DNA of 64,000 nucleotides, taken from Trichormus variabilis 0441 (GTDB taxonomy: Bacteria; Cyanobacteriota; Cyanobacteriia; Cyanobacteriales; Nostocaceae). The notes beneath the pieces are model-generated. The model worked only from the letters and a program-made list of their open reading frames with translations, did not search any database and had not been told where the DNA came from. The stretch spans positions 3,974,001-4,038,000 of the forward strand of contig NZ_CP047242.1 of NCBI RefSeq assembly GCF_009856605.1, in the 5' to 3' direction. Shown one piece after another: positions 4,701 to 29,677 of this stretch. Made by a program: the position numbers and the translations under genes. The stretch's first letter is position 1; every line of letters begins with the position of its first letter.

Positions 4701-6387
4701 CATTGTCAGTGGCAGTAATGACAACACAATCCGGTTGTGGGATGTGAATGGTCAGCCCATTGGTCAACCCTTCCGGGGGCATGAAGGAGGGGTCAATTCA
4801 GTAGCGTTTTCCCCCGACGGTGGGCGCATTGTCAGTGGCAGTAATGACAACACAATCCGGTTGTGGGATGTGAATGGTCAGCCCATTGGTCAACCCTTCC
4901 GGGGGCATGAAGGAGGGGTCAATTCAGTAGCGTTTTCCCCCGACGGTGGGCGCATTGTCAGTGGCAGTAATGACAACACAATCCGGTTGTGGGATGTGAA
5001 TGGTCAGCCCATTGGTCAACCCTTCCGGGGGCATGAAGGAGGGGTCAATTCAGTAGCGTTTTCCCCCGACGGTGGGCGCATTGTCAGTGGCAGTTATGAC
5101 AACACAGTACGGTTGTGGGATGTGAATGGTCAGCCCATTGGTCAACCCTTCCGGGGGCATGAAGGAGGGGTCAATTCAGTGGCGTTTTCCCCCGACGGTG
5201 GGCGCATTGTCAGTGGCAGTAATGACAACACAATCCGGTTGTGGGATATGAATGGTCAGCCCATTGGTCAACCCTTCCGGGGGCATGAAGATATGGTCTA
5301 TTCAGTGGCGTTTTCCCCCGACGGTGGGCGCATTGTCAGTGGCAGTTATGACAAGACAATACGGTTGTGGGATATGAATGGTCAGCCCATTGGTCAACCC
5401 TTCCGGGGGCATGAAGATATGGTCTTATCAGTGGCGTTTTCCCCCGACGGTGGGCGCATTGTCAGTGGCAGTTATGACAACACAGTACGGTTGTGGGAGG
5501 CGAATGGTCAGTCCATTGGTCAACCCTTCCGGGGGCATGAAAATTTGGTCAATTCAGTAGCGTTTTCCCCCGACGGTGGGCGCATTGTCAGTGGCAGTAA
5601 TGACAACACAATCCGGTTGTGGGATGTGAATGGTCAGCCCATTGGTCAACCCTTCCGGGGGCATGAAGGAAGGGTCTATTCAGTGGCGTTTTCCCCCGAC
5701 GGTGGGCGCATTGTCAGTGGCAGTAATGACAACACAATCCGGTTGTGGGATGTGAATGGTCAGCCCATTGGTCAACCCTTCCGGGGGCATGAAAATTTGG
5801 TCTATTCAGTGGCGTTTTCCCCCGACGGTGGGCGCATTGTCAGTGGCAGTTGGGACAACACAATACGGTTGTGGGATGTGAATGGTCAGCCCATTGGTCG
5901 ACCCTTCCGGGGTCATGAAAATGTGGTCTATTCAGTGGCGTTTTCCCCGGATGGTGGGCGCATTGTCAGTGGCAGTTGGGACAACACAATACGGTTGTGG
6001 GATGTGAATGGTCAGTCCATTGGTCAACCCTTCCGGGGGCATGAAGATTGGGTCAGATCAGTGGCGTTTTCCCCCGACGGTGGGCGTATTGTCAGTGGCA
6101 GTGATGACAAGACACTCAGGTTGTGGGATGTGAATGGTCAGCCCATTGGTCAACCCTTCCGGGGGCATGAAGATTTGGTCAGATCAGTGGCGTTTTCCCC
6201 CGACGGTGAGCGCATTGTCAGTGGCAGTTATGATGAAACCATCCGTATTTGGGATGCAGCTACTGGTGATTGTCTGCGGGTAATCAGCTATAAACTTTGT
6301 GCAGGGCTGAATATTACAGGTGTAACAGGGCTAACGTCAGCACAGCGCGTAGCATTAAAACTAATGGGAGCGATTGATAATTTATGA
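1714..6387 (+). CDS. Caspase-like / NACHT NTPase / WD40 signalling protein
   Basis: A 1557-residue NLR-like protein. Residues about 1-250 are a caspase (C14) fold with both catalytic motifs: YFSGHG (His) and WLDCCYSGE (Cys). Residues about 265-395 resemble a degenerate restriction-endonuclease-like domain (ILVRGITGEAEMKDV, then IGWLITNRRVS). A NACHT-type P-loop follows (GEFGTGKTWF, about 450-460) with Walker B (LLIFDGFDEM, about 535). After helical regions and a short pentapeptide-like stretch (about 915-940) come 14 WD40 repeats of about 42 residues (about 942-1515), enough for two seven-bladed propellers, and a short tail. Known logic for such proteins: the propeller senses a ligand, the NTPase oligomerises and the caspase is the effector. 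The ligand is unknown. The stop overlaps the next ATG by 4 bp, which implies translational coupling. Confidence 0.88.
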   Translation: MSRDALVVGINKYSFAGLSGLKSPAKDAEAIAKRLSEAGNFHVKRSPQFLDPFEDHAPRVAANQELKLADLEKALEELFYPEGRSIPDTALFYFSGHGLRKEGRIKEGYLATSDTNPDVGNWGLRLKWLRELLQESPVRQQIIWLDCCYSGELLNFTEADPGDRGNTRDRCFIAASREFEPAYENVGGASSLLTSAILRGFDLADVSNQWVTNETLVAFLREELKTAPQKFISNNLGCINIIFRAETTKKQAVQPVTPTANQPNQTAKLAEQLRAWFTALRYDFEQYEINNETYFEWIINVINPVGRKRYNRILVRGITGEAEMKDVAALRQSVNAQRTDIGWLITNRRVSRAAKDEVSKQENQDLFCYTLDELLDRDADFSCYLNWLEDEIKQRGIDRTYVPLACTKEEFDPISKQKMGMSRYAQADGWIDGYVDRWLDDPAKEHLSILGEFGTGKTWFGLHYAWTTLQRYRDAQRRGVERPRLPLVIPLRDYAKAVSVESLFSEFFFRKHEIPLPGYSAFEQLNRMGKVLLIFDGFDEMAARVNRQEMINNFWELAKVVVPGAKVILTCRTEHFPEAKEGRALLSAELQASTINLPLETPRFEVLELEKFDDEQIRQVFGFRAEAETVEQVMNNSTLRDLARRPVMTELIIEALPEIEAGKPVDISRVYLYAVRHKMERDIKAERTFTSLADKLYFLCELSWEMLSQDQMSMNYKEFPDQIRRLFGSVVEEEKDLDHWHYDMMGQTMLIRNAEGDYSPAHRSLLEFFAAYKLVAELGVLAPDFTELAQAQSCLDKTVPARDYTWSEYFQRQCQEDGQLLPIAPIKSFTNASLERLCNYLGTSPLAKALLDLAVPMLDEQVFQQILLRLIQATRGKTQAQVGYIGGNLVKLLIERNPYSLENCDLSNTVIPDVNFANASFRWVNLMGTNLTNSVFAPVLGVVYSVAFSPDGKKLVIGDSKGTIQVWETFSGRVLLFLQGHENGVKSVAFSPDGGRIVSGSNDNTIRLWDVNGQPIGQPFRGHEGGVNSVAFSPDGGRIVSGSNDNTIRLWDVNGQPIGQPFRGHEGGVNSVAFSPDGGRIVSGSNDNTIRLWDVNGQPIGQPFRGHEGGVNSVAFSPDGGRIVSGSYDNTVRLWDVNGQPIGQPFRGHEGGVNSVAFSPDGGRIVSGSNDNTIRLWDMNGQPIGQPFRGHEDMVYSVAFSPDGGRIVSGSYDKTIRLWDMNGQPIGQPFRGHEDMVLSVAFSPDGGRIVSGSYDNTVRLWEANGQSIGQPFRGHENLVNSVAFSPDGGRIVSGSNDNTIRLWDVNGQPIGQPFRGHEGRVYSVAFSPDGGRIVSGSNDNTIRLWDVNGQPIGQPFRGHENLVYSVAFSPDGGRIVSGSWDNTIRLWDVNGQPIGRPFRGHENVVYSVAFSPDGGRIVSGSWDNTIRLWDVNGQSIGQPFRGHEDWVRSVAFSPDGGRIVSGSDDKTLRLWDVNGQPIGQPFRGHEDLVRSVAFSPDGERIVSGSYDETIRIWDAATGDCLRVISYKLCAGLNITGVTGLTSAQRVALKLMGAIDNL
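4540..6270 (+). repeat. Tandem 126-bp WD40-coding repeats (14 units)
   Basis: Each unit encodes about 42 residues built on VAFSPDGGRIVSGS, then DNT, RLWD.NGQ.IGQPFRGHE. Units 2-13 are nearly identical at the DNA level, with silent sites matching too. Variation is concentrated at a few codons: the residues after GHE, the residue before SVAFS, and N/Y/W/D before D(N/K)T. The first and last units are diverged. This pattern implies recent unit duplication or gene conversion, with selection for change only at the exposed positions. Confidence 0.95.
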
Positions 6388-9300
6388 GTCGAGATGCTTT
6401 AGTTGTTGGCATTAATACTTATAATTTTCCCCAATTGCCCCGCTTGCGATCGCCTGCCAAGGACGCGGAAGGTATTGCTCAACGACTAAGTGAAGGAGAT
6501 TATTTCCGAGTTTGGCGGCTTCCAGAATACCTTGACCCATTTGAAAATAATGCCCCTCGTGTAGCTCAGAATCAAGAAGTTATCTTGAGGGACTTAAAAA
6601 CTGCATTAGAACGACTATTTCTCCCTGAAGGCAATAATTATCCAGACACAGCCCTGTTTTATTTCTCTGGACATGGTATTCGCAGTACAGGACGCATTAA
6701 AGAAGGATTTTTGGCAACTAGCGACACCAACCCAGATGATGATAAATGGGGATTATCCTTACAGTGGTTACGGCGGGTGTTGGAAGAAAGCCCAATTCGC
6801 CAGCAGGTAATTTGGTTAGACTGTTGTTACAGTGGCGAATTGTTGAACTTTGATGAAGCAAATCCAGGTGATAAAGGAAAAGCACGCGATCGCTGTTTTA
6901 TTGCAGCTAGTAGAGAATTTGAAGAATCCTGGACAGATCCCAACAGTGACTACAGTGTACTGACGAAGGTATTACTCAAAGGGCTTGAGCCGCAAAGACA
7001 ACAAGACGGATTAGTAGATAATTACAGACTAATAGATTTTATCAATCAGAACTTAAAGCAAGAAAAGCAACGTCCGGTATTTTATAATTCTGGCTTGCCC
7101 ATCACGTTGGTTAAAAGTAAAACAACTGTAACCCAAAATACTGATAATTCTTTGCAACCGAACAAAAATCCCTATCGGGGTTTAGCCGCCTTTGACTTTA
7201 AACCAGAAGACATTCAGTTTTTTTATGGACGAACAGCATTAACAGATGAACTTTTAGAGAAACTCTGGCAGCAGAATTTTCTGGCAGTATTAGGAGCATC
7301 TGGTAGCGGCAAATCTTCAGTTGTAAGGGCAGGCCTGCTAAATGCAATTCAGCAAGGGGAGCGACGAGACACAGCCAATTGGCATATTCTGCCAGTAATT
7401 ACCCCAGGAAATGATCCTTTAGCAAGTCTTGCAGCAGCGTTTATTAATCCCAATGAACCAGATGGGCGTAAATCTCGCCTTTGCCAAACTTATAGCCGTG
7501 AGTTACAGGAGGAGGGAGCAAAAGCCTTAGCAAAGTTAGTTGCTGATTACCAGCCAAACCCAGTGGTATTGGTTATTGACCAGTTCGAGGAGGTATTTAC
7601 ACTCTGCAACGACAGCCAAGAAAGACAGAAGTTTTTTGCTTGTCTCATGGATGTGCTGACTTCGCCTAATGAAACTGAAAACAATACTGCTGCCTTACGA
7701 GTTGTGATCACCATGCGGGCAGATTTCTTGGGCAAATGCCTAGAACAAGATTATGCCGGACTTGCCGAAAATATCAAAAATCATATTGCAACAGTAACAC
7801 CTCTGAACCAAGAGGAGTTGCGAGATGCCATTATCAAACCTGCTGAACTGGTGGGACTAAGTGTTGAGGAAGCACTGGTAAGGAAAATGATTGCCGATGT
7901 CCAGGGTTCTCCTGCTAGTTTGCCACTACTACAGTATGCCCTGACAGAACTGTGGGAACTTTGGCATCAAGACTGGCAGCAGCGTGGGACGACAGCAGGT
8001 AAGACATTAACACTGACAAACTATGTTCAAATTGGTGAAGTCAAAGGCGCTTTAGAAAAACAGGCAGATAAAGTTTACAATACCCTTTCCGAGAAAGAAC
8101 AAGCAGTTGCCAAACGAATCTTTTTAGAGTTAACGCAGTTAGGAGAGGGTACTGAGGATACCCGTAGACGAGTTCTTAAAAGTGAGTTGATTAATGACCA
8201 GCATCCAGAGGAATTGTTAGATCAGGTAATTTGCAAGCTGGCAGATGCTCGATTAGTGGTCACGAACAATATTGTGCTAAATGTAACCACAGTAGTACGA
8301 ACCGAGAAAATGGGAGATACGACATCCCAACCCGTTGAGGTGGTAATAGATGTAGCCCATGAAGCACTAATTCGTCACTGGACAAGTCTGCGGTTGTGGC
8401 TTGATGAAAACCGTGATGCTTTAAGAACGGAGAGAAAATTGCAGACTGCCGCTAAAGATTGGCAGGATCACCAACAAGATAGTGCTTATTTGTGGTTAGG
8501 TGCAAGGTTGGCAGAAGCACAAGAGTATGAGCAGAAATACTTCAGATTGGGGCGACTAGTTCCCCTGAGCAAAAAATTTATTGAAGCTAGCAAAACAGAA
8601 CAACAGCGATTAGAACGAGAAAAAGATGAACAAATTCAGGCATTAAACCAGGCACTAACTGAATCTCAACTACGAGAGCAAGCTATAAGGATACTTGAGT
8701 TATTACAAATTCAACCACAGGATGGCGTGGAGTCAGCTATTCAGGCAATAGAAGAAAATTTGAAACAACTGCCAGCAAATATATTGACAGTAGTGCAGAA
8801 TAACCTGCTGCAAGCTATGGCTATTGTCAATTTACCTAATATTATCCAAGGGCATGAATCTGGGGTCAATTCAGTGGCGTTTTCCCCGGACGGTCAGCGC
8901 ATTGTCAGTGGCAGTGGGGACAAGACACTCAGGTTGTGGGATGTGAATGGTCAGCCGATTGGTCAACCCTTGATTGGGCATGAAGGAGCGGTCAAATCAG
9001 TGGCGTTTTCCCCGGACGGTCAGCGCATTGTCAGTGGCAGTGGGGACAAGACACTCAGGTTGTGGAATGTGAATGGTCAGCCGATTGGTCAACCCTTGAT
9101 TGGGCATGAAGGAGAGGTCAAATCAGTGGCGTTTTCCCCGGACGGTCAGCGCATTGTCAGTGGCAGTTGGGACAACACACTCAGGTTGTGGAATGTGAAT
9201 GGTCAGCCGATTGGTCAACCCTTGATTGGGCATGAAGGAGCGGTCAATTCAGTGGCGTTTTCCCCGGACGGTCAGTGCATTGTCAGTGGCAGTTGGGACA

Positions 9301-10106
9301 ACACACTCAGGTTGTGGGATGTGAATGGTCAGCCGATTGGTCAACCCTTGATTGGGCATGAATCTGGGGTCTATTCAGTGGCGTTTTCCCCAGACGGTCA
9401 GCGCATTGTCAGTGGCAGTGGGGACAACACACTCAGGTTGTGGGATGTGAATGGTCAGTCGATTGGTCAACCCTTAATCGGGCATGAATCTGGGGTCTAT
9501 TCAGTGGCGTTTTCCCCAGACGGTCAGCGCATTGTCAGTGGCAGTTGGGACAACACACTCAGGTTGTGGGATGTGAATGGTCAGTCGATTGGTCAACCCT
9601 TAATCGGGCATGAATCTGGGGTCTATTCAGTGGCGTTTTCCCCCGATGGCCAGCGTATTGTCAGTGGCAGTTGGGATAACACACTCAGGTTGTGGGATGT
9701 GAATGGTCAGCCGATTGGTCAACCCTTGATGGGGCATAAAGCTGCGGTCATATCAGTGGCGTTTTCCCCGGACGGTCAGCGCATTGTCAGTGGCAGTGCT
9801 GACAACAAACTCAAGTTGTGGCGTGGTAGCTGGCAATCATGGCTGAAGGTCTGCTGTGACCGATTAGCTTACTACCTCATCTCTCACAACCCTGAGAACA
9901 ATATTATGGAAGGATCTTGCGCTGTCTGTGCAAAATATGCTTGGAGTAGTGCAGAAATAGCAAAAATTTTGCAGCGACAAGCTTATGATTTAGCTTTTCA
10001 GGGCAAGGTAGAGCTTGCAATCACTAAATTCCAGCAAGCAATCGAGTACGATCCCAGCCTAAAGTTAGACCCGGAAACAGAAGCTCATAAGTGGAGCAGA
10101 CGTTAG
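6384..10106 (+). CDS. Caspase-like / nSTAND NTPase / WD40 / TPR-like protein
   Basis: A 1240-residue paralogue of the preceding gene in its N- and C-terminal modules. The caspase domain (about 1-245) has YFSGHG and WLDCCYSGEL. The middle is a different NTPase: after the linker NPYRGLAAFDFKPED comes the P-loop GASGSGKSS (about 304-312) and Walker B LVIDQFEE (about 395), typical of the novel-STAND (nSTAND1) type rather than NACHT. A helical coiled region (about 745-820) leads to 8 WD40 repeats (about 826-1150), then a helical tail ending in a TPR-like segment (AFQGKVELAITKFQQAIEYD). Its ATG overlaps the previous stop (ATGA), so the two proteins are probably made together. The ligand and caspase substrate are unknown. 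Confidence 0.88.
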   Translation: MSRDALVVGINTYNFPQLPRLRSPAKDAEGIAQRLSEGDYFRVWRLPEYLDPFENNAPRVAQNQEVILRDLKTALERLFLPEGNNYPDTALFYFSGHGIRSTGRIKEGFLATSDTNPDDDKWGLSLQWLRRVLEESPIRQQVIWLDCCYSGELLNFDEANPGDKGKARDRCFIAASREFEESWTDPNSDYSVLTKVLLKGLEPQRQQDGLVDNYRLIDFINQNLKQEKQRPVFYNSGLPITLVKSKTTVTQNTDNSLQPNKNPYRGLAAFDFKPEDIQFFYGRTALTDELLEKLWQQNFLAVLGASGSGKSSVVRAGLLNAIQQGERRDTANWHILPVITPGNDPLASLAAAFINPNEPDGRKSRLCQTYSRELQEEGAKALAKLVADYQPNPVVLVIDQFEEVFTLCNDSQERQKFFACLMDVLTSPNETENNTAALRVVITMRADFLGKCLEQDYAGLAENIKNHIATVTPLNQEELRDAIIKPAELVGLSVEEALVRKMIADVQGSPASLPLLQYALTELWELWHQDWQQRGTTAGKTLTLTNYVQIGEVKGALEKQADKVYNTLSEKEQAVAKRIFLELTQLGEGTEDTRRRVLKSELINDQHPEELLDQVICKLADARLVVTNNIVLNVTTVVRTEKMGDTTSQPVEVVIDVAHEALIRHWTSLRLWLDENRDALRTERKLQTAAKDWQDHQQDSAYLWLGARLAEAQEYEQKYFRLGRLVPLSKKFIEASKTEQQRLEREKDEQIQALNQALTESQLREQAIRILELLQIQPQDGVESAIQAIEENLKQLPANILTVVQNNLLQAMAIVNLPNIIQGHESGVNSVAFSPDGQRIVSGSGDKTLRLWDVNGQPIGQPLIGHEGAVKSVAFSPDGQRIVSGSGDKTLRLWNVNGQPIGQPLIGHEGEVKSVAFSPDGQRIVSGSWDNTLRLWNVNGQPIGQPLIGHEGAVNSVAFSPDGQCIVSGSWDNTLRLWDVNGQPIGQPLIGHESGVYSVAFSPDGQRIVSGSGDNTLRLWDVNGQSIGQPLIGHESGVYSVAFSPDGQRIVSGSWDNTLRLWDVNGQSIGQPLIGHESGVYSVAFSPDGQRIVSGSWDNTLRLWDVNGQPIGQPLMGHKAAVISVAFSPDGQRIVSGSADNKLKLWRGSWQSWLKVCCDRLAYYLISHNPENNIMEGSCAVCAKYAWSSAEIAKILQRQAYDLAFQGKVELAITKFQQAIEYDPSLKLDPETEAHKWSRR
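8860..9830 (+). repeat. Tandem 126-bp WD40-coding repeats (8 units)
   Basis: Eight units share the frame VAFSPDGQRIVSGS, then D(N/K)T, LRLWDVNGQ.IGQPLIGHE. Nucleotide identity between units is very high and the framework is nearly the same DNA as in the upstream gene (for example ATTGTCAGTGGCAGT). The two arrays differ systematically at GGR/GQR, IRLW/LRLW and PFRGHE/PLIGHE. So homogenisation works mainly within each gene. Confidence 0.93.
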
Positions 10107-10413
10107 AAGTAAATAGTGAGCAATCTAACTCCAGACTTCTCTCCCCCTGAATTGGAAAACGTCATAGTTTTTTAATCGTAATCAATCTTCATCTGGTTGT
10201 AACATCTCAAAGTATTTTGAGAGGTCATTGATAAATAACTTTACACACGATAAGTTTAGTTTTGCACACTATATGTTAGTGTAACGATATTCGTACAATG
10301 TAATTCACAAGATAAATTGAGTCAATCCTCTGACCATAATCTCCAAGCTCAGAAGATATTTGATGCTTTACCTAATTAGCCCAAACTGCAAAATCGATTT
10401 TTGGTGAAAAATT
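10107..10413 (+). promoter_or_regulatory. Upstream region of the transposase operon with a putative Xre operator
   Basis: This 307-bp stretch holds no gene. At 10240-10283 lies TTACACACGATAAGTTTAG, immediately followed by TTTTGCACACTATA (10260-10273) and ATGTTAGTGTAA. The whole is bounded by the inverted arms TTACAC and GTGTAA. The 14-bp core is identical to 26497-26510 upstream of cas12k, and the flanking TACACA..ATAA element is shared as well. TTGCAC (10262-10267) could serve as a -35 box, so a bound repressor would block the promoter. I see no transposon-end repeats here: neither TGTACA nor the GCGACA-TAAT-GTGAA units found at the other end. Confidence 0.6.
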
Positions 10414-11088
10414 ATGGTTTCCCAACTTCAGCAACGAAACGATTATTCATTTGCAGACTATAGCAACTCGTGTTGGTTCATTGACTTTGCTTTATTGGAT
10501 ATAAATATTGCTGACACAAATGGTTCATTGATTGGAAGACCCTATTTAACTACAGCTATAGATATTTATTCTCAATGCTGTATGGGTTTATTTTTGAGTT
10601 TAAAATCACCAAATCATCAAGCGATAACTCAAGCCTTGCGTCACGCAATTTTACCGAAAAGTTACGATTCAGAATATAACTTACGTCATGAGTGGATAAC
10701 CTACGGCATCCCGGCAGGCTTACAACTCAATAATAGCAGTCTTACAAATTCCTATTTATTACAAGATAAATTGTCTCAACTAGGAATTAGTATATATTCT
10801 CCCAAGTCTGGCTCAAGATTGAATGATTCTTTTACTGAAAAATTATTTTCTGAGATAAATAGATACCTAAGTTCAGATGCACTATCAAATCAAATATCTA
10901 CTGACAATAATTCTTTCCTGACTTTGGGAGTTTTAGAAAAAATATTAGTGCTTTACTTCGTTGACAATTTTAATCAACAAATTCATAATGATTCCTCGCA
11001 TCAAACACGTCAAGAACGGTGGGAATCAGGCTTAGGTTCTGCGTCTAAGATGATTGAAGAAAACTTTATCCACACATTGTTAACTTAA
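10414..11088 (+). CDS. TnsB-like protein with broken DDE triad, catalytic-domain only
   Basis: A 224-residue protein aligning to the integrase-core region of the full TnsB encoded 2 bp downstream. The shared block is RHAILPKSYDSEYNLRHEW against HHAILPKSYSSEYTLRHEW, and homology continues to TLGVLEKILVLYFVDNFNQ and QERWESGL. It lacks the N-terminal DNA-binding helices and the C-terminal beta-barrel and tail of TnsB. The first Asp (D24 in WFIDFALLD) and a plausible Glu (E142 in FTEKLFSEIN) are kept. The second Asp, in TnsB's FYTDGGKDF, is replaced (LQLNNSSLT, N106). So it should not catalyse strand transfer. The frame is open and not obviously decaying. It could be a regulator or assembly partner of TnsB, or a relic. 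Confidence 0.8.
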   Translation: MVSQLQQRNDYSFADYSNSCWFIDFALLDINIADTNGSLIGRPYLTTAIDIYSQCCMGLFLSLKSPNHQAITQALRHAILPKSYDSEYNLRHEWITYGIPAGLQLNNSSLTNSYLLQDKLSQLGISIYSPKSGSRLNDSFTEKLFSEINRYLSSDALSNQISTDNNSFLTLGVLEKILVLYFVDNFNQQIHNDSSHQTRQERWESGLGSASKMIEENFIHTLLT

Positions 11089-11090
11089 CA

Positions 11091-12836
11091 ATGTACCAAC
11101 AATTACAAGATTCTTATCCTGCAAACGACGATGGTGCTGTTGAATTACAAAAGCACCAAAATTCTACGAAAACCTCTTCTAAACTGCCGTCAGAAAAGTT
11201 AATTACCGACGACGTAAAGCTGAGGATGGAGGTAATTCAAAGCTTAACTGAACCTTGCGATCGCAAAACATACAGCGAGAAAAAGAAAGAAGCTGCCGAA
11301 AAATTGGGCGTAACAATTCGTCAGGTAGAGCGATTGCTGAAAAAATGGCGGGAAGAAGGGTTAGTTGGGCTAGCAACGACACGCGCAGATAAAGGAAAAT
11401 ACCGCCTTGAACAAGAATGGGTAGATTTTATAATTAATACTTACACCAATGGTAACAAGAAGGGTAAACAAATGACCCGCCATCAGGTGTTTTTAAAGGT
11501 TAAAGGTGAAGCCAAGGAAAAAGGTCTTAAAAAAGGTGAGTATCCTAGTCACCAGTCAATTTATAGAATTTTAGATAAACACATTGAGGGAAAAGAAAGA
11601 AAAGATAATGCACGTAGTCCTGGTTATTCAGGAGAGAAACTCACCCACATGACCCGTGATGGTCGAGAGTTGGAAGTTGAGGGCAGTAATGATGTCTGGC
11701 AATGTGACCATACTCGCTTAGATGTAATGTTGGTAGATGAGTATGGAGTTTTAGACCGTCCTTGGTTAACTATTGTGATTGACTCCTACTCTCGTTGTGT
11801 AATGGGTTTTTATTTGGGATTTGATCACCCTAGTTCTCAAATTGATGCCCTAGCTTTGCATCATGCGATTTTGCCCAAGTCCTATAGTTCTGAGTACACA
11901 TTGCGTCACGAATGGGTAGCTTATGGCAAGCCTAACTACTTCTACACTGATGGTGGTAAAGATTTTACTTCTATCCACACAACAGAACAGGTTGCAGTGC
12001 AAATAGGTTTTTCTTGCGCTTTGAGAAGACGACCATCTGATGGTGGAATTGTTGAACGCTTCTTCAAAACACTTAACGAGCAAGTATTAAATACTCTCCC
12101 CGGATATACAGGCTCAAATGTTCAACAACGCCCAGAAAATGTTGATAAAAATGCTTGTCTCACTCTCAAGAATTTAGAGATGGTATTAGTACGCTACATC
12201 GTTGATGAGTACAACCAGCACACGGATGCCAGGATGAAAGACCAATCTCGAATTGGGCGTTGGGAAGCTGGATCGATGGTAGAACCATATCTTTATAATG
12301 AATTGGACTTAGCTATTTGTTTAATGAAACAAGAACGGCGCAAAGTTCAAAAGTATGGCTGTATTCAATTTGAAAATTTGACCTATCGGGCAGACCATTT
12401 GAGAGGTCGAGATGGAGAAACTGTAGCACTAAGATATGACCCTGCCGATGTAACTACGCTTCTTGTATACGAAATTAATGCAGACGGCACAGAAGAATTT
12501 CTCGATTATGCCCATGCTCAAAGTTTAGAAACAGAACACCTATCTTTAAGAGAACTCAAGGCAATTAATAAGCGGTTAAAAGAAGCAAGCGAAGAAATTA
12601 ATAATGACTCGATTTTAGAGGCAATGCTTGACCGTCAAGCTTTTGTAGAGCAAACAGTTAAACAAAACCGCAAACAACGCAGACAAGCAGCAAGTGAGCA
12701 AGTTAATCCTGTAGAGCCAGTGGCTAAAAAATTTGCTGTCCCTGAGCCTAAAGAAGTCGAGACTGACAGCGAACCAGATATGGAATTACCTAATTACGAG
12801 GTTCGTTACATGGATGAATTTTTTGAAGAGGATTAG
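11091..12836 (+). CDS. tnsB: CAST transposase TnsB (DDE integrase)
   Basis: 581 residues, the size usual for V-K TnsB. N-terminal helix-turn-helix domains (about 45-170, including VTIRQVERLLKKWREEGLVG) bind the end repeats. The RNase-H-like core has the full triad: D206 (WQCDHTRLD), D287 (FYTDGGKDF) and E322 (GGIVERFFKTLNE). A Mu-type beta-barrel follows (about 410-490) and a charged C-terminal tail (ending YEVRYMDEFFEED) that in this family contacts TnsC. It cuts and joins the 3' ends. With no TnsA, the family tends to form cointegrates. It begins 2 bp after the TnsB-like gene and is followed 9 bp later by tnsC, so the four genes read as one operon. Confidence 0.97.
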   Translation: MYQQLQDSYPANDDGAVELQKHQNSTKTSSKLPSEKLITDDVKLRMEVIQSLTEPCDRKTYSEKKKEAAEKLGVTIRQVERLLKKWREEGLVGLATTRADKGKYRLEQEWVDFIINTYTNGNKKGKQMTRHQVFLKVKGEAKEKGLKKGEYPSHQSIYRILDKHIEGKERKDNARSPGYSGEKLTHMTRDGRELEVEGSNDVWQCDHTRLDVMLVDEYGVLDRPWLTIVIDSYSRCVMGFYLGFDHPSSQIDALALHHAILPKSYSSEYTLRHEWVAYGKPNYFYTDGGKDFTSIHTTEQVAVQIGFSCALRRRPSDGGIVERFFKTLNEQVLNTLPGYTGSNVQQRPENVDKNACLTLKNLEMVLVRYIVDEYNQHTDARMKDQSRIGRWEAGSMVEPYLYNELDLAICLMKQERRKVQKYGCIQFENLTYRADHLRGRDGETVALRYDPADVTTLLVYEINADGTEEFLDYAHAQSLETEHLSLRELKAINKRLKEASEEINNDSILEAMLDRQAFVEQTVKQNRKQRRQAASEQVNPVEPVAKKFAVPEPKEVETDSEPDMELPNYEVRYMDEFFEED

Positions 12837-12845
12837 GTAGAGAAT

Positions 12846-13673
12846 ATGACGGATGCAAAACCATTAGACTTTATTCAGGAACCCACGCGAGAAATCCAAG
12901 CTCACATTGAACGTTTAAGCCGCGCTCCTTACTTAGAATTAAACCAAGTTAAAAGTTGCCACACTTGGATGTATGAGTTAGTTATTTCTAGGATGACTGG
13001 TCTCTTGGTAGGAGAATCACGCTCCGGAAAGACAGTTACTTGTAAAGCTTTTAGAAATAACTATAATAACTTACGACAAGGGCAAGAACAACGTATAAAG
13101 CCTGTGGTTTATATTCAAATTTCCAAAAACTGTGGCTCAAGAGAGCTTTTCGTTAAAATTCTCAAGGCCTTGAATAAACCATCAAATGGAACAATTGCTG
13201 ATCTGAGAGAGCGAACACTAGATAGCCTTGAAATACATCAAGTGGAGATGCTAATTATTGATGAAGCAAATCACTTAAAAATTGAAACATTTTCAGATGT
13301 ACGGCATATTTATGATGAAGATAGTTTAAAAATTTCGGTGCTACTTGTAGGTACTACAAGTCGGCTATTGGCAGTAGTAAAACGTGATGAACAAGTTGTT
13401 AACCGTTTTTTAGAAAAGTTTGAGATAGATAAATTAGAGGAAAATCAATTTAAGCAAATGATTCAAGTTTGGGAACGAGATGTGCTTAGATTGCCCGAAG
13501 AATCAAAATTAGCAAGCGGAGAGAGCTTTAAACTTTTGAAGCAGTCAACGAATAAATTAATTGGTAGGCTGGATATGATTCTTCGTAAAGCAGCTATTCG
13601 TTCGTTACTGAGGGGTTATAAAAAAGTAGACCAGGGTGTTTTAAAAGAAATTATTACAGCAACAAAATTTTAA
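12846..13673 (+). CDS. tnsC: CAST AAA+ regulator TnsC
   Basis: 275 residues, the usual length of V-K TnsC. Walker A is GESRSGKT (about 56-63) and Walker B is MLIIDEAN (about 133-140), with sensor-like VLLVGTTSRL (about 173). The protein polymerises on target DNA with ATP, couples the Cas12k/TniQ target complex to TnsB and contributes target immunity (family knowledge). It lies 9 bp after tnsB and 1 bp before tniQ. No missing residues are evident. Confidence 0.96.
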   Translation: MTDAKPLDFIQEPTREIQAHIERLSRAPYLELNQVKSCHTWMYELVISRMTGLLVGESRSGKTVTCKAFRNNYNNLRQGQEQRIKPVVYIQISKNCGSRELFVKILKALNKPSNGTIADLRERTLDSLEIHQVEMLIIDEANHLKIETFSDVRHIYDEDSLKISVLLVGTTSRLLAVVKRDEQVVNRFLEKFEIDKLEENQFKQMIQVWERDVLRLPEESKLASGESFKLLKQSTNKLIGRLDMILRKAAIRSLLRGYKKVDQGVLKEIITATKF

Positions 13674-13674
13674 A

Positions 13675-14196
13675 ATGAGAGAAAGTATAAATGAAAATAA
13701 GCAGTTTTGGTTAATCAGAGTTGAGCCGCTAGAAGGGGAAAGCATCAGCCACTTCTTAGGTAGATTTAGACGAGAGAAAGGAAATAAATTTTCTGCTCCT
13801 AGTGGATTAGGTGATGTAGCAGGGCTTGGGGCTGTGTTAGCCCGTTGGGAGAAGTTTTACTTTAATCCCTTTCCTACTCATCAGGAGTTAGAAGCACTAG
13901 CATCTGTAGTACAAGTTGATGTAGATAGATTGCGACAGATGTTGCCACCACTTGGTGTCAGCATGAAACACAGTCCAATTCGATTGTGTGGAGCCTGTTA
14001 CGCAGAGTCACCTTGTCATAAAATCGAGTGGCAGTTTAAAAAGACTGTGGGATGCGATCGCCATCAGCTACGCTTGTTATCAAAATGCCCTGTCTGCGAA
14101 AAGCCATTTCCAGTCCCCGCCTTATGGGTAGATGGAATTTGCAATAGATGTTTTACGCCTTTTGCAGAGATGGCACAATATCAAAAGCATTACTAA
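13675..14196 (+). CDS. tniQ: CAST target adaptor TniQ (short form)
   Basis: 173 residues, the short TniQ typical of V-K elements. The N-terminal TniQ motif is VEPLEGESISHFLGRFRRE (about 16-34). Cys/His zinc-binding motifs are RLCGACYAE, GCDRHQLRLLSKCPVC and ICNRCF (about 102-160). It bridges Cas12k and TnsC at the target. No longer TnsD-like TniQ is present in the window, so homing must rely on a guide RNA, in line with the tRNA-matching spacer at 29373. Confidence 0.94.
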   Translation: MRESINENKQFWLIRVEPLEGESISHFLGRFRREKGNKFSAPSGLGDVAGLGAVLARWEKFYFNPFPTHQELEALASVVQVDVDRLRQMLPPLGVSMKHSPIRLCGACYAESPCHKIEWQFKKTVGCDRHQLRLLSKCPVCEKPFPVPALWVDGICNRCFTPFAEMAQYQKHY

Positions 14197-14502: not shown

Positions 14503-17500
14503 ATGGTTGTTAGGCTTGAGAATCTGACAAAAGGCACACAAGTACAAGGGATTTTGCCCAACAATATTGTTACCATCGTTGATGCTCAGTGGCATGGCTC
14601 TGATGTTGTTGAACTTACTTATAAAGATGCTAGTGGCACGCTAGGGAATGAGTTGGTATTTCGAGATAAAGAAATTACCCTAGAAATTATCACTTCTGGC
14701 GGTGCTTGGAGTTTTACTGCTGATGGTGCTAACTTTCGTTTAGTATCAGAAGCCCACCGTATTCGCCTAGCTTATCTGTTTGACCCTTTACTAGCTGTTC
14801 ACACCTCTCTAGTCGAACCGCTACCGCACCAAATTACTGCCGTTTACGGAGAAATGTTGACTCGTCAACCTCTGCGCTTTCTGTTAGCAGATGACCCAGG
14901 TGCAGGTAAAACTATTATGGCTGGGTTGCTGATTCGAGAATTGCTCATCCGTGGGGATTTACATCGCTGTCTTGTGGTTTGTCCTGGCAGTTTAGCCCCA
15001 CAATGGCAAGATGAACTATCACAAAAGTTTCATTTGCGCTTTGAAATTCTCACTAATGACCGTATTGAATCAGCAGTCAGTGGAAATGCTTTTTCAGAAA
15101 TACCATTACTGATTACACGATTAGATCAACTTAGTCGCAACCAAAACTTACAAGCGAAACTAGGGCAGACAGACTGGGATTTGGTGATTTGTGATGAAGC
15201 TCATAAAATGTCAGCTTCATTTTTTGGCGGAGAAATCCAAGAGACAAAGCGCTACAAGCTGGGCAAGCTATTATCGAGTTTAACCAGACATTTTTTATTA
15301 ATGTCAGCAACGCCGCATAACGGTAAAGAAGAAGACTTTCAGTTGTTTATAGCGTTGTTAGATGGTGATAGATTTGAAGGACGTTTCCGCGATGGTGTCC
15401 ACGTTGTAGATACTTCCGACTTGATGCGGCGTTTGGTTAAAGAAGATTTGCTCAAATTTGATGGCAAGCCATTATTTCCAGAACGTCAAGCCAGCACTAT
15501 AGAATACGAACTCTCCGATTTAGAAGCAGTACTTTATAAGCGAGTTACTGAGTACGTCCGTGAGGAGTTCAATCGTGCTGATGCTTTAGAAAATGAAGGA
15601 CGCAAAGGTACAGTGGGCTTTGCTTTAACTATTTTGCAACGCCGACTTGCTTCATCTCCAGAAGCTATTTATCAATCACTGCTACGCCGTCGAGAAAGGT
15701 TGCAAAAACGGTTGCGAGAAGAAGAATCGTTGAAGCGAGGAACTAATGCAACTATTGCATTTAAACAGGTTCTGGATTTAGAAGACATAGAAGATGATTT
15801 AGAAGATATTTCTATTGAAGAACGAGAAGCAACAGAACAAGAAGTAGTTGATTTAGCTACAGCATCACGCACGATCGCAGAATTGCAAACAGAAATTAAG
15901 CTTTTACAAGAATTAGAACAACTGGCTTTGCGTGTCCGGCGTAGTGGCAAAGATAAGAAATGGGAAGAACTCTCCAATCTGCTACAAAACAATGCCGAAA
16001 TGTTTAATGCTGAGGGACATCGGCGCAAACTGGTAATTTTTACCGAGCATCGGGACACATTAAATTATTTAACAGACAGGATTCGGACGCTACTGGGACG
16101 TAATGAAGCGGTGGTGACGATTCATGGCGCAATGGGACGCGAAGAACGTCGTAAAGCACAGGACGCATTTACCCAAGATATTGAAGTGCAAGTCTTAATC
16201 GCTACTGATGCTGCGGGTGAGGGGATTAACTTGCAAAGGGCGCACTTGATGGTTAATTACGATTTACCTTGGAATCCTAACCGCCTCGAACAACGCTTCG
16301 GACGAATTCACAGGATTGGGCAAACAGAGGTTTGTCACTTATGGAATTTATTGGCAAAAGATACCCGTGAAGGCGATGTGTATTTAGCATTATTAAAAAA
16401 GGTGGAAGCAGAGCAGAAAGCACTGGGGGGTAAAGTATTTGATGTATTAGGGAAAGCGATCGCAGGCAAGGAACTGAGAGAATTGCTCATAGAAGCAATT
16501 CGTTATGGTGATCAACCAGAGGTACGAGACAAACTTAACCAAGTTGTCAACGATAAACTTGACCAACAACGATTGCGGGAACTTCTAGAAGAACAAGCTT
16601 TAGCCCATGATGCAATGGATTTTGCCAAAGTTCAACAAATCCGAGAGGAAATGGAAAGGGCAGAGGCAAGGCGGTTGCAACCGCACTTTATAGCTTCATT
16701 CTTCTTAGAAGCATTTGTCCAGCTTGGTGGAACAGTACGTCAGCGAGAACCCCAACGCTATGAAATTACTCATGTTCCATCTGTCATCCGCAACCGAGGG
16801 CGGCAAATTGGAGTAGGAGAACCATTACTACAGCGTTACGAACGTATTTGCTTTGAAAAAGATTTGATTAGTATTGCTGGCAAACCTCTAGCAGCTTTTA
16901 TCTGTTCCGGTCATCCTTTGTTGGATGTCACAATTGACCTGACTTTGGAACGACATAGAGATTTGTTGAAACAGGGCAGTATTTTGGTGGATGAGAATGA
17001 TTCTAGCGAAGAAACCCGCACGCTAATTTATCTAGAACATTCTATACAAGATGCAAGAACCAATCTCAATGGTGCTAGGCGTGTAGTCTCACGGCGAATG
17101 CAATATGTGGAAATTAACCCGGAGGGAAATGCCTACAATGCTGGACACGCACCTTACCTCAATTACCGTCCACTCAGGGATGAAGAAAAAGATATTTTGG
17201 CAGCAGTTCTAGAAGAATCTTGGCTACGAGAAGATTTAGAAGCAAAAGCCAAGAGTCACGCGATCGCTCACCTTGTTCCCCAACATCTTCAAGAACTCAG
17301 GCAGCGCAAAGAAGAACTAATTGCTAAGACGATGACAGCAGTAAAAGATAGATTGACCAAGGAGATTAATTACTGGGATCATCGCGCAGAAGAATTAAAA
17401 ATACAAGAAGAAGCTGGTAAACCCAATGCCAAAATTAACTCAGCTAAAGCACGTCAACGAGCAGATGATTTGCAAGGGCGATTAATGCAACGTTTGGAGG

Positions 17501-18021
17501 AGTTGGAACAAGAACGTAAGTTATCTCCATTACCGCCTGTAATAGTTGGAGGTGCGTTGATAGTATCAGTGGGTTTGCTGGAACGACTGCAAGGCAAATC
17601 ACAGCCTACAAAGGATATGTTTGCCAAGGATACAGAACGGGTAGAAAAGGCTGCAATGGCTGCTGTAATGACCGCAGAATGCACGTTAGGGTATGAACCA
17701 ATAGATGTCAGTAACCAGAAGTGTGGTTACGATATTGAATCGCGCATTCCAGACACAGGACAGTTGCGATTTATTGAAGTTAAAGGGCGAATTACAGGGG
17801 CTAAAACTGTGACAGTAACGAAGAATGAAATTATTACGGCTCTCAACAAGCCAGACAATTTCATTTTGGCATTGGTACAAGTACCTTTAACAGCAGGATT
17901 GGATAGTAATGATTCTATTCGTTATTTACAGCGTCCGTTCCATAAAGAGCCAGATTTTGCAGTAACCAGTGTTAATTATGATTGGCTGGAGTTGTGGCAA
18001 CAAGGAACTGAGCCAGTTTAG
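14503..18021 (+). CDS. SNF2-family helicase with C-terminal DUF3883-like domain (defence cargo)
   Basis: 1172 residues. The SNF2/superfamily-2 core has Walker A DDPGAGKTIMAG (about 130), DEAH (VICDEAHKM, about 230), SATPHNGKEEDF (about 268) and the C-terminal helicase motifs ATDAAGEGINLQ and RFGRIHRIGQ (about 570-605). Charged helical regions follow. The C-terminus (about 1045-1172) carries GYDIES, then RFIEVKGRI, which fits the DUF3883 nuclease-like fold (D plus ExK). Such helicases (DrmD-like) pair with DUF1156 methylases and DUF499 ATPases in anti-phage loci, exactly the neighbours found here. The likely job is phage-DNA recognition or processing. The named system type is uncertain. Confidence 0.85.
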   Translation: MVVRLENLTKGTQVQGILPNNIVTIVDAQWHGSDVVELTYKDASGTLGNELVFRDKEITLEIITSGGAWSFTADGANFRLVSEAHRIRLAYLFDPLLAVHTSLVEPLPHQITAVYGEMLTRQPLRFLLADDPGAGKTIMAGLLIRELLIRGDLHRCLVVCPGSLAPQWQDELSQKFHLRFEILTNDRIESAVSGNAFSEIPLLITRLDQLSRNQNLQAKLGQTDWDLVICDEAHKMSASFFGGEIQETKRYKLGKLLSSLTRHFLLMSATPHNGKEEDFQLFIALLDGDRFEGRFRDGVHVVDTSDLMRRLVKEDLLKFDGKPLFPERQASTIEYELSDLEAVLYKRVTEYVREEFNRADALENEGRKGTVGFALTILQRRLASSPEAIYQSLLRRRERLQKRLREEESLKRGTNATIAFKQVLDLEDIEDDLEDISIEEREATEQEVVDLATASRTIAELQTEIKLLQELEQLALRVRRSGKDKKWEELSNLLQNNAEMFNAEGHRRKLVIFTEHRDTLNYLTDRIRTLLGRNEAVVTIHGAMGREERRKAQDAFTQDIEVQVLIATDAAGEGINLQRAHLMVNYDLPWNPNRLEQRFGRIHRIGQTEVCHLWNLLAKDTREGDVYLALLKKVEAEQKALGGKVFDVLGKAIAGKELRELLIEAIRYGDQPEVRDKLNQVVNDKLDQQRLRELLEEQALAHDAMDFAKVQQIREEMERAEARRLQPHFIASFFLEAFVQLGGTVRQREPQRYEITHVPSVIRNRGRQIGVGEPLLQRYERICFEKDLISIAGKPLAAFICSGHPLLDVTIDLTLERHRDLLKQGSILVDENDSSEETRTLIYLEHSIQDARTNLNGARRVVSRRMQYVEINPEGNAYNAGHAPYLNYRPLRDEEKDILAAVLEESWLREDLEAKAKSHAIAHLVPQHLQELRQRKEELIAKTMTAVKDRLTKEINYWDHRAEELKIQEEAGKPNAKINSAKARQRADDLQGRLMQRLEELEQERKLSPLPPVIVGGALIVSVGLLERLQGKSQPTKDMFAKDTERVEKAAMAAVMTAECTLGYEPIDVSNQKCGYDIESRIPDTGQLRFIEVKGRITGAKTVTVTKNEIITALNKPDNFILALVQVPLTAGLDSNDSIRYLQRPFHKEPDFAVTSVNYDWLELWQQGTEPV

Positions 18022-18277
18022 ATTTTATTGTTTGGTGCGATCGCAATTTTGAAACAATAAGTCAGACAGGACAATCTAGTAATTCTACTGGCACAAAAAG
18101 TTAATAAAAAGACTATAAATACTAGATGAAGCTTTGTCATCTAGTTAAGCAATTTTTAGTTAAAAAAGGCTAATTAGCCCATCAAGACCCTATATAAATA
18201 ATACGTGATTTCACATAAAAAAATATTTATTACGCTTAACAAGTACAAGTTTCGATTAAATCTGTCTGGTACGAAAA

Positions 18278-25308: not shown

Positions 25309-25566
25309 TCAGGCTGCTAATTTTCCCAAGTATTCATTCTGGAGTACAGCCACCTGTTGTTTCAACGTCTCCAAGTCTGTTTGCATTTTAGCTAAATCTG
25401 GTGTTCCAGTGGATTCTTCAGCTAGGTAAGAACGAATCCAACCCATGATTAATTCGGAGGCTGTCTTACCCTCAGTTTTAGCTTTGTTCATAAAAGCTTC
25501 CTTAGTTTCATCGTCCATTCTGACAATGATTTGATTGCTTAATTTTGTCGTTTGCCGCTTTACCAT
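25309..25566 (-). CDS. Ribbon-helix-helix DNA-binding protein with C-terminal coiled coil
   Basis: 85 residues. The N-terminal strand TTKLSNQIIVRMDDETKEAF is followed by a two-helix unit (KAKTEGKTASELIMGWI), the plan of MetJ/Arc/CopG repressors. Residues 55-80 form a heptad-type coil (LAKMQTDLETLKQQVAVLQ). It is divergent from the 101-aa gene at 25764, and the interval between them contains repeated GTAAC sites, so autoregulation is likely. RHH proteins are known as plasmid or transposon regulators. A role in CAST control is possible, but the Xre gene at 26194 is better placed for cas12k. Confidence 0.8.
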   Translation of the reverse strand: MVKRQTTKLSNQIIVRMDDETKEAFMNKAKTEGKTASELIMGWIRSYLAEESTGTPDLAKMQTDLETLKQQVAVLQNEYLGKLAA

Positions 25567-26193: not shown

Positions 26194-26445
26194 CTAATAC
26201 TCAGTATCTTCTGCTTCAATACCGTAGTTGGTAAAAAGATCAGAAATAGAGATGTTCAGCGCTTTTGCCAGCTTTTCAATATTTTTGAGAGAAGGATTAC
26301 GAGTTCCTGTCTCAATACTTGAGATGTAATTACGGTGAAGCCCAGCTTTTTCAGCCAGTTCTTCTTGAGAGTAATCCAGTTCTCGCCGTCTTCGTCTTAT
26401 CGCTTTTCCGAAACGATATTCAATGTTGATGTTATTTTGCCTCAC
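26194..26445 (-). CDS. Xre-type repressor, candidate cas12k/transposase regulator
   Basis: 83 residues with a canonical Xre/Cro helix-turn-helix: FGKAIRRRRRELDYSQEELA, then EKAGLHRNYISSIETGTRNP and SLKNIEKLAKALNISISDLF. There is almost no extra domain, so it probably acts as a dimer without a ligand-binding module. It is divergent from cas12k with 121 bp between starts. This is the position where V-K CASTs encode their dedicated regulator (the MerR-type CvkR of Anabaena is the known case; other HTH classes occupy the slot in other elements). Paired palindromes in the shared intergenic region, repeated before the transposase operon, make it the likely repressor of both units. Confidence 0.85.
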   Translation of the reverse strand: MRQNNINIEYRFGKAIRRRRRELDYSQEELAEKAGLHRNYISSIETGTRNPSLKNIEKLAKALNISISDLFTNYGIEAEDTEY

Positions 26446-26478
26446 AGCCTAATAGTGAGGTAGTACCGATAATAAATC

Positions 26479-26526
26479 TACACATAATAAATGTGATTTT
26501 GCACACTATAAGTGTTAATTTAAGAA
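26479..26526 (+). promoter_or_regulatory. cas12k promoter with two tandem palindromic operators
   Basis: CACATAATAAATGTG (26481-26495) and ACACTATAAGTGT (26503-26515) are near-palindromes of the form ACAC-AT-rich-GTGT spaced about two helical turns apart. TTGCAC (26499-26504) and TAAGAA (26521-26526) form a plausible -35/-10 pair with a 16-bp gap, so the second operator overlaps the promoter. TTTTGCACACTATA (26497-26510) recurs exactly at 10260-10273. Confidence 0.65.
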
Positions 26527-26566
26527 TACTGGTGTATTTAGTACAGTTCAGGGAGCAGAAAACGCT

Positions 26567-28498
26567 ATGAGTGTTATTACTATCCAATGTCGATTAATAG
26601 CCAGCGAAGCTACCCGCAGCTATCTGTGGCAATTGATGGCACAGAAAAATACACCTTTGATTAACGAACTAATTGAACAGCTAGGAATACATCCTGAGAT
26701 AGAGCAGTGGTTGAAAAAGGGCAAGCTACCAGATGGAGTAGTCAAACCACTGTGCGACTCACTCATTACGCAAGAATCTTTTGCTAATCAACCCAAACGT
26801 TTTAATAAATCTGCTATTGAGGTAGTTGAGTATATTTACAAGTCATGGCTAGCTTTACAGAAAGAGCGACAACAAACAATAGATAGAAAAGAACATTGGC
26901 TCAAGATGCTCAAAAGCGATGTGGAATTGGAGCAAGAGAGTAAATGTACTTTAGATGCTATTCGCTCTCAAGCTACTAAAATTCTGCCGAAATATCTTGC
27001 TCAATCCGAACAAAATAATAATCAGACTCAGAGTCAAAACAAGAAAAAGAGTAAAAAAAGTAAAACTAAAAACGAGAACTCTACATTATTTGATATTTTA
27101 TTCAAAGCTTATGACAAAGCGAAAAATCCCCTTAATCGATGCACTCTTGCGTATTTGCTCAAAAATAACTGTCAGGTTAGCCAAAAAGACGAAGACCCAA
27201 ATCAGTATGCTCTACGCCGCAGTAAGAAAGAGAAAGAAATTGAACGTCTCAAAAAACAACTACAATCTAGGAAACCCAATGGTCGTGATTTGACAGGAAG
27301 AGAGTGGCAACAAACTCTCATAATGGCAACTTCATCTGTTCCTGAAAGTAACGATGAAGCTAATATTTGGCAGAAACGTCTTTTAAAAAAAGATATTTCA
27401 CTCCCATTCCCAATTCGATTCAGAACTAACGAAGACCTAATTTGGTCAAAAAATGAAGAAGGACGTATTTGTGTTAGCTTCTCAGGTGAAGGATTGAATG
27501 ATCACATCTTTGAAATATACTGCGGCAATAGACAAATTCACTGGTTTCAAAGATTTTTAGAAGATCAGAACATCAAAAACGATAATAATGACCAGCATTC
27601 ATCTGCTCTGTTCACTTTACGTTCGGCAATTTTAGCGTGGCAAGAAAATAAACAACATAAAGAAAATAGCCTCCCTTGGAATACTCGTCGTTTAACTCTT
27701 TATTGCACCCTTGATACACGCTTGTGGACAACTGACGGTACTGAGAAGGTAAAGCAAGAGAAAGTAGACGAATTTACTCAACAATTGGCCAACATGGAAC
27801 AGAAAGAAAACCTCAATCAGAATCAGCAAAATTATGTCAAACGCCTGCAATCAACATTAAATAAACTCAACAATGCTTACCCACGTCATAATCATGATTT
27901 GTATCAGGGTAAACCATCAATTCTAGTTGGTGTGAGTTTAGGTTTAGAAAAGCCTGCAACATTAGCTATTGTGGACAGTTCCACAAATATAGTTCTTGCA
28001 TATCGTAGTATCAAACAGCTACTTGGCGATAATTACAAGTTGCTGAACCGCCAGCGACAGCAGCAGCAACGTAACTCTCATGAACGCCACAAAGCTCAAA
28101 AAAGCAATATGCCAAATAAGTTATCAGAATCTGATTTAGGAAAGTACATTGATAACTTACTAGCACAAGCAATTATCGCATTAGCTAAAAATTACCAAGC
28201 TGGCAGTATTGTTCTACCGACAATGAAAAATGTACGGGAGAGCATTCAAAGTGAAATAGAAGCTAGGGCAGTTAAAAGATGTCCTAATTACAAGGAAGGT
28301 CAGCAACAGTATGCTAAACAGTACCGCCAGAGCATTCATCGTTGGAGTTACAACAGATTGATGCAGTTTATTCAGAGTCAAGCAGTTAAGGCAAACATTT
28401 CTATAGAGCAAGGGCCACAACCGATTCGAGGTAGTTCTCAAGAAAAAGCGCGAGATTTAGCGATCGCAGCTTACTATTTACGCCAAAATAAATCTTAA
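26567..28498 (+). CDS. cas12k: Cas12k, nuclease-dead type V-K CRISPR effector
   Basis: 643 residues, the short length typical of Cas12k. Recognised segments include NTPLINELIEQLGIHPEIEQ near the N-terminus, LPFPIRFRTNEDLIWSKNEE (about 281), FEIYCGNRQIHWFQRFLEDQ (about 320), VGVSLGLEKPATLAIVDS (RuvC-like strand, about 453), YRSIKQLLGDNYKLLNRQRQ and the C-terminal QPIRGSSQEKARDLAIAAYY. The RuvC catalytic acidic residues are not in place, as in all Cas12k, so it binds but does not cut DNA. With tracrRNA and crRNA it marks the insertion site for TniQ/TnsC/TnsB. The Lys-rich linker at 143-165 is within family variation. Confidence 0.97.
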   Translation: MSVITIQCRLIASEATRSYLWQLMAQKNTPLINELIEQLGIHPEIEQWLKKGKLPDGVVKPLCDSLITQESFANQPKRFNKSAIEVVEYIYKSWLALQKERQQTIDRKEHWLKMLKSDVELEQESKCTLDAIRSQATKILPKYLAQSEQNNNQTQSQNKKKSKKSKTKNENSTLFDILFKAYDKAKNPLNRCTLAYLLKNNCQVSQKDEDPNQYALRRSKKEKEIERLKKQLQSRKPNGRDLTGREWQQTLIMATSSVPESNDEANIWQKRLLKKDISLPFPIRFRTNEDLIWSKNEEGRICVSFSGEGLNDHIFEIYCGNRQIHWFQRFLEDQNIKNDNNDQHSSALFTLRSAILAWQENKQHKENSLPWNTRRLTLYCTLDTRLWTTDGTEKVKQEKVDEFTQQLANMEQKENLNQNQQNYVKRLQSTLNKLNNAYPRHNHDLYQGKPSILVGVSLGLEKPATLAIVDSSTNIVLAYRSIKQLLGDNYKLLNRQRQQQQRNSHERHKAQKSNMPNKLSESDLGKYIDNLLAQAIIALAKNYQAGSIVLPTMKNVRESIQSEIEARAVKRCPNYKEGQQQYAKQYRQSIHRWSYNRLMQFIQSQAVKANISIEQGPQPIRGSSQEKARDLAIAAYYLRQNKS

Positions 28499-29574: not shown

Positions 29575-29677
29575 GCGACATTAATTTGTGAACGGTTATC
29601 TTAAATGAGCCGCGACACTAATTAGTGAAACAGCGACATTAATGTGTGAACGGCGACATCTAATGTGTGAATGTACA
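29575..29677 (+). repeat. CAST terminal end: four TnsB-site repeats and terminal TGTACA
   Basis: Units are GCGACATTAATTTGTGAA (29575), GCGACACTAATTAGTGAAAC (29612), GCGACATTAATGTGTGAA (29633) and GCGACATCTAATGTGTGAAT (29653). The last runs into TGTACA (29672-29677). Repeat spacing of 20-21 bp for the outer three, with one more inner copy, is the usual layout of Tn7-like ends. The orientation of the units places the element to the left of 29677. Confidence 0.85.

Follow-up and report, generated by a model that had tools for sequence, protein, structure and literature searches.

The open reading frame at positions 10414 to 11088 (+ strand) of the window, by which we mean the whole 64,000-nucleotide stretch of Trichormus variabilis 0441 DNA that was analysed, is a member of an uncommon group of CAST-associated proteins made up solely of domain IIalpha of TnsB (the RNase H-like domain, hereafter the core). 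Since it recurs in several elements, often with the active site worn down and the shape retained, the core seems closer to an integral accessory part of the element, or a brake on it, than to debris.

The core gene and the element that carries it

The core ORF starts with ATG, runs through 224 uninterrupted codons to a TAA stop, and is followed after a gap of 2 bp by the ATG of tnsB at 11091, just as the first-pass annotation had described it; the broken frame that is expected of a pseudogene is absent. The likeness to the TnsB core that had been read from the sequence was upheld, since BLASTP against the neighbouring TnsB gave 37% identity over 197 aligned positions and matched TnsB residues 199-394 (E 2e-38, single comparison), which places the RNase H-like domain IIalpha in the window core. 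The loss of the N-terminal and C-terminal domains was also confirmed, as Pfam found HTH and Mu-transpos_C in TnsB and did not find them in the core, where the rve match was only below the cut-off (E 0.013); the NCBIfam search of the ORF gave no meaningful match. The model of the core spans ShTnsB 187-411, and IIbeta of ShTnsB starts at 410 according to an excerpt of PMC9876797. Because tnsB begins 2 bp after the core stop, there is no room downstream for the missing TnsB domains. The proposed reading of the catalytic triad stood for its first two members, D24 and N106, whose counterparts in the window TnsB are D206 and D287, but the pairing of E142 with E322 depends on the alignment (one alignment gives it and four do not) because the GGxxER motif is missing in the window core, and thus the third acid is uncertain. 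The GGKDF and RPSxGGxxER motifs are lost and the window core has no complete DDE triad.

The core gene lies inside a CAST of 30.9 kb whose type V-K gene set is complete in the window: tnsB (11091..12836, +; 581 aa, full-length, with HTH, rve and Mu-transpos_C domains, 604 bits against ShTnsB 7svw), tnsC (12846..13673, +; AAA, TniB family, PF05621 and PF13401), a short V-K type tniQ (13675..14196, +; 173 aa, PF06527) and cas12k (26567..28498, +; 643 aa, NF038191 V_Cas12k, 902 bits). The terminal sequence has only two matches with up to 2 mismatches in the 7.1-Mb genome, G000:C1:3972755 and 4003677, and these are inverted. The left-end terminus is at 29654..29677 (-), an inverted match to the right end, which was not found when searched for within the window and is situated 1.2 kb outside it at the former position. 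ACAAGC flanks both ends and a tRNA-Thr at 29717-29788 adjoins the left end. On the right-end side, the cargo at 1714-10106 has two large caspase/WD40-type genes (names by sequence reading); these genes separate the right end from the transposase operon, a distance that is only about 1.2 kb in the related element of G471. The cargo at 14503-25022 resembles a defence gene cluster: it includes a DUF1156-like methyltransferase and two large proteins, one an SNF2-type helicase and the other ATPase-like. The genome of the window (G000) has further TnsBs and two further Cas12ks. A TnsB with a 619-aa frame is present there in two copies on different contigs (G000:C1:4317715 and G000:C3:242260) with identical core sequences, which looks like recent movement within this genome. 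V-K CASTs occur only in cyanobacteria, according to the review PMC11406308.

A block at 10229..10296 (+; coordinates via the G471 alignment), about 120-185 bp before the core ATG, is homologous to the block upstream of cas12k at 26467..26534 (+). The 185 bp upstream of the window core ATG align with G471, and the block upstream of the G471 core, which is homologous to the window from 10230 on, matches window 26467-26534 at 81% over 69 bp (E 5e-10). The earlier proposal of an operator-bearing promoter is supported in so far as a regulatory block is common to the core and cas12k; from the match between the two blocks, one regulator probably serves both genes. SD-like sequences are found upstream of several core copies, with none obvious for the G471 copy. 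Divergent from cas12k is an ORF for a small Xre/HTH-type protein (26194..26445, -; 83 aa), whose homologue in the corresponding position of G471 is 90% identical, and behind it an ORF for a small Arc/RHH-like protein (25309..25566, -; 85 aa) that is 87% identical in G471; the Xre and RHH names are by sequence reading. The CvkR paper gives MerR, Arc_1 and Arc_2 as regulator types, and the word Xre is absent from its main text (PMC9938897). Possibly, the Xre-like and RHH/Arc-like genes represent a further regulator type.

Relatives, positions and origin

Relatives of the core were surveyed in 99 relatives, an order-level set of 388 genomes (queried with the G003 core and with a nine-core profile), 217 genomes of the family (with two profiles) and 386 genomes of the phylum. 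These sets overlap and candidates per genome were scored in part, and all core counts are lower bounds. Including the window copy, there are at least 10 stand-alone cores in nine genomes. In the family set, cores are present in at least 8 of 217 genomes (G000, G003, G405, G468, G471, G472, G476 with two copies, and G019), in the order draw in at least 3 of 388 (G000, G405 and G198), and in the phylum draw in at least 1 of 386 (G000). A Cas12k match at E 1e-20 was obtained in 124 of the 217 family genomes and, set against the number of cores in the same set, this means that most CASTs are without a core gene.

Nine of the ten cores adjoin transposition or regulator genes and the tenth, in G019, is 0.5 kb from a contig end, with its frame ending at a TGA in place of the expected W of RW. 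Conservation before tnsB, which the first-pass annotation had suggested checking, was found in G471, whose core (L050:6966-7637, 61% identical to the window core) is directly before tnsB with a 35-bp gap in a V-K element that has Cas12k and homologues of both small regulators. The position before tnsB thus holds for the window and G471, but it is one of several, as other cores are elsewhere. The cores of G003 (L038:7551-8255, with Cas12k and a CvkR-like gene on the same contig), G472 (L049:7407-8096) and G198 (L041:9484-10161, with Cas12k on the same contig) come after tniQ, and that of G405 (L039:9195-9842) follows, in the same orientation, a CvkR-like MerR gene that is itself divergent from cas12k. 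The cores of G468 (L051:7520-8185) and the first copy of G476 (L052:7144-7809) are directly before tnsAB-tnsC-tnsD operons (tnsC and tnsD names by reading), which are Tn7-like and not V-K, with a transposase of about 27% identity to the window TnsB, whereas the cores themselves are V-K-derived. In G468 a tblastn of 7476000-7528000 around the core found no other V-K gene; in G476 a V-K tniQ and Cas12k are within about 10 kb of the first core. The second G476 core (L067) comes after tnsC of a divergent element. As for the G471 element (L050, L061), frame breaks, which are decay or assembly errors, interrupt tnsB, tniQ and cas12k. Its core, its tnsC and the two small regulators have uninterrupted frames, and the flanks of its two ends do not match.

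In G498, whose TnsB is 74% identical to that of the window, no stand-alone core was found in the 16 kb that was examined. Octamer-pattern scans for close relatives matched 32 stretches in genome contigs and 9 in viral contigs, and none in either group encoded a relative. A match was present in 1038 plasmid records, all at less than 60% identity, and among the 40 listed only distant TnsB-type proteins were seen. Matches in G264, G024, G190, G016, G019:C301, G054, G427, G426, G355, G443 and G498 were taken to be ordinary fragments of TnsB or broken TnsBs and left uncounted, as was the G409 match, where the core piece runs into Cas12k. Kept apart was a 309-aa frame in G553 (L057:7054-7980, -), located after tniQ, that is TnsB core plus IIbeta with no N-terminus; it has Asn at the first catalytic Asp, is followed by another TnsB piece, and is possibly an intermediate or a relic.

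Five of the ten cores (G471, G472, G198, G468 and the first of G476) stop exactly at L(D/E)I, which is TnsB 407-409, and those of the window, G003 and G405 stop within a few residues of it. The G019 and second G476 cores have other boundaries, and thus the boundaries are similar in eight of ten. When whole TnsB was used in tblastn at the core loci, the matches covered only the core or a few residues beyond, and hence no remnants of other TnsB domains were seen beside the cores. In a tree built from 33 different rows, covering the ten cores together with 25 cores of TnsBs, the second G476 core is sister to the TnsB of its own neighbourhood (support 100/99), the window, G471, G468 and first G476 cores form one supported clade (100/99), and nine cores group with TnsBs other than those of their own element. 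A single origin of all ten was rejected (p-AU 7.3e-29), from which it follows that cores arose at least twice. Constraining the other nine cores together was not rejected (p-AU 0.161), which does not establish a single origin for them, as long branches meet in this tree; nor was placing the four window-type cores (p-AU 0.198) or the G198 core (p-AU 0.174) with the TnsBs of the window CAST clade.

When G003 is compared with G472, tnsB shows a nucleotide identity of 0.51-0.85 and tnsC one of 0.70-0.80. Identity then increases along tniQ, going from about 0.75 to 0.86-0.97 over 3' tniQ and the core; the core itself reaches 0.93-0.97, the next 0.35 kb or so 0.84-0.92, and past this point the value drops to about 0.4. 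The dS of the core is 0.10 compared to 2.0 for tnsB and 1.7 for tnsC. By these sequence comparisons, a cassette of 3' tniQ and core was exchanged between the two elements separately from tnsBC. The CAST is a mosaic here (L038:7200-8600 against L049), with tnsB and tnsC nearly saturated at silent sites.

Selection, retention and a possible role

In the window/G471 pair the core has dN 0.258, dS 0.548 and omega 0.47 (bootstrap 0.32-0.71, Fisher p 6.7e-5), whereas omega of the same pair is 0.14 for TnsC and about 0.10 for TnsB pieces, so that the core value is about three to five times higher. The window-type core is therefore under purifying selection, less tightly than its neighbours. For G003/G472 omega is 0.49 (0.25-1.05, Fisher p 0.045), which is borderline, and for G468/G476 it is 0.71 (0.27-2.70), which is not distinguishable from 1. 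In simulated neutral drift with substitutions only, the frame remained open in 5 of 400 runs per lineage at 78% identity, 1 of 400 at 61% and 0 of 400 at 45%, and likewise in 0 of 400 runs from the TnsB core to 38% identity. An open frame at the observed divergence is very unlikely under neutrality. It had been proposed that absence from all related elements together with neutral dN/dS would make the ORF a simple relic; neither holds, given the G471 orthologue at the equivalent site, the more distant stand-alone cores of seven further genomes and the omega of 0.47.

Retention was scored in nine cores at the 83 positions that are invariant in 20 V-K TnsB rows (19 distinct), with segments drawn after the alignment was viewed and the near-twins G003/G472 and G468/G476 counted apart. 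It was 64% for 199-212, 72% for 214-245 and 97% for 255-282, fell to 38% for 284-294 (the D287 motif), 39% for 310-326 (RPSxGGxxER) and 44% for 327-350, and was 67% for 356-385 and 75% for 386-409. Folding alone could be the cause of the retention of 255-282. The OD helix of ShTnsB is lodged between NTD2 and the DDE domain, and the partner OD helix contacts H272, R367 and E360 on the DDE domain (PMC9527255, in excerpt); helix IIIalpha wraps domain IIalpha (PMC9371665, in excerpt). Among the 9 cores, 2 retain H272, which is within segment 255-282, 7 retain R367 and 4 retain E360; the window core, with R91, V173 and L180 at H272, E360 and R367, has none of the three. The active site varies, being D-D-E in G003, G472 and G405, D-D in G471 and E-G-E in G198, with His at the first position in G468 and the first G476 core, and Glu lost in the second. 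The first description of the window core as a TnsB paralogue, stripped of its other domains and heading the operon, stands. The label 'catalytically dead' does not fit the set as a whole, and a dead enzyme was rejected as its definition.

The reading that we favour, tentatively and at somewhat less than an even chance, is that the core is an operon-encoded modulator, most likely a brake, that would bind TnsB via domain IIalpha and temper assembly. Upon derepression of the CAST the core would be made together with TnsB and would bind it at the IIalpha face that receives the C-terminal helix (OD / IIIalpha) of the neighbouring protomer. Being without DNA-binding domains and without the TnsC-contacting IIbeta or hook, it would occupy the helix and supply no full protomer, and in this way transpososome assembly may be limited or timed. 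We favour a brake because segment 255-282 and, in most cores, R367 are kept whereas the active-site motifs are eroded, because single-domain cores with similar boundaries recur at several positions, and because of the omega of the window-type core, the rarity of open frames in the neutral simulation, the upstream block common with cas12k and the SD-like sequences. The loss of most of the published contact residues, with none of them in the window core, slightly lowers the odds of a brake and raises those of a relic. The brake reading is further weakened because omega is several-fold above that of TnsB and TnsC and the other two pairs are weak, because most CASTs do without the gene, and because the G468 core and one G476 copy precede TnsAB and not a V-K TnsB; the DDE-intact cores are unexpected for a pure decoy.

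That the core is a relic or a slowly decaying duplicate, in a process by which single-domain TnsB fragments would form time and again and linger for a period with no function, we consider unlikely. TnsB fragments are indeed common in the surveyed genomes, the core is rare and patchy with an eroded active site, an independent case stands beside its own parent gene (L067), the G471 element has broken frames, and the elevated omega in two pairs and the indistinct one in the third would all suit a relic. The open frame, the omega below 1 in the window/G471 pair, the shared boundaries, the concentration of retention in segments and the confinement of whole-TnsB matches to the core or a few residues beyond speak against it. 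Rather unlikely, too, is interference between elements, whereby the core would be a decoy that poisons the TnsB tetramer of a rival CAST or Tn7-like element and so protects or favours the resident one. The additional TnsBs and Cas12ks in the window genome indicate that rivals coexist, V-K-derived cores are found beside TnsAB operons with a distant transposase, and the G003/G472 cassette moved apart from tnsBC like a traded module. However, the window core belongs to the tnsB operon and follows a promoter of the type that the element itself uses, an arrangement that fits self-regulation better. The least probable reading is that the core is a positive subunit, which replaces or adds a catalytic-domain protomer or, where DDE is intact, supplies the extra cut in elements that have no TnsA. 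V-K elements are without TnsA and resolvase, and the handling of cointegrates in their hosts is unknown according to PMC11406308; three cores keep D-D-E, and the duplicated ACAAGC flanks the window element as after a simple insertion. Nevertheless, triad residues are lost in the window, G198, G468 and both G476 copies, most of nine cores have degraded GGKDF and RPSxGGxxER motifs, and most surveyed V-K CASTs manage without a core.

Significance and comparison with known systems

A broader proposal, which we put only a little short of an even chance, is that V-K CASTs carry a tradeable stand-alone gene for the TnsB catalytic domain that exerts protein-level control over RNA-guided transposition, as a brake or a rival-exclusion factor, and that it arose at least twice, moves as a cassette and can accompany a TnsAB transposon. 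The regulators described for V-K CASTs (CvkR and the Arc types) act on transcription; if the proposal is true, a native protein acting on TnsB would be a second control layer. It would also be relevant to the way in which a cell copes with more than one CAST and would provide programmable insertion with a natural on/off part. Ready comparisons are the orthologue in G471, the DDE-intact copies and L067 as the independent case. In the excerpts of open-licence PMC literature that were covered there is no description of a truncated TnsB accompanying Cas12k and TnsB, and the match for Cas12k with a tnsB paralog was a paper on the MultiCAST platform. Such a protein is also not described in the passages covered of PMC9938897, PMC9527255, PMC9876797, PMC9371665, PMC11406308 and PMC10293859.

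Compared to V-K TnsB (ShTnsB, PDB 7svw, 8aa5 and 8ea3), the core is without the N-terminal DNA-binding domains, IIbeta, IIIalpha and the TnsC hook, and in the window copy the second catalytic Asp is Asn. CvkR, Arc_1 and Arc_2 are CAST-encoded DNA-binding repressors of V-K CASTs (PMC9938897, in excerpt). The core is likewise CAST-encoded, and the G405 copy lies behind a CvkR-like MerR gene, but unlike these regulators it has no DNA-binding domain that Pfam could find. TnsF of Tn6022 is a catalytically inactive recombinase derivative of the tyrosine type that is discussed as a target selector (PMC10293859, in excerpt). Like TnsF, the core would be a derivative of a recombinase that a Tn7-like element keeps as an accessory, with an eroded triad in the window copy. 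The fold of TnsF, that of a tyrosine recombinase, is unrelated to that of the TnsB core. Truncated transposase inhibitors such as Inh of Tn5/IS50 are shortened transposases from the same element that act via mixed oligomers. The core is likewise a shortened transposase in an element that encodes a full-length one. It may derive from the transposase of its own element, and it may also act in mixed oligomers. Unlike Inh, it is a separate gene and not an alternative start of tnsB, both ends have been removed, and it is 37% identical and not identical to the neighbouring transposase.
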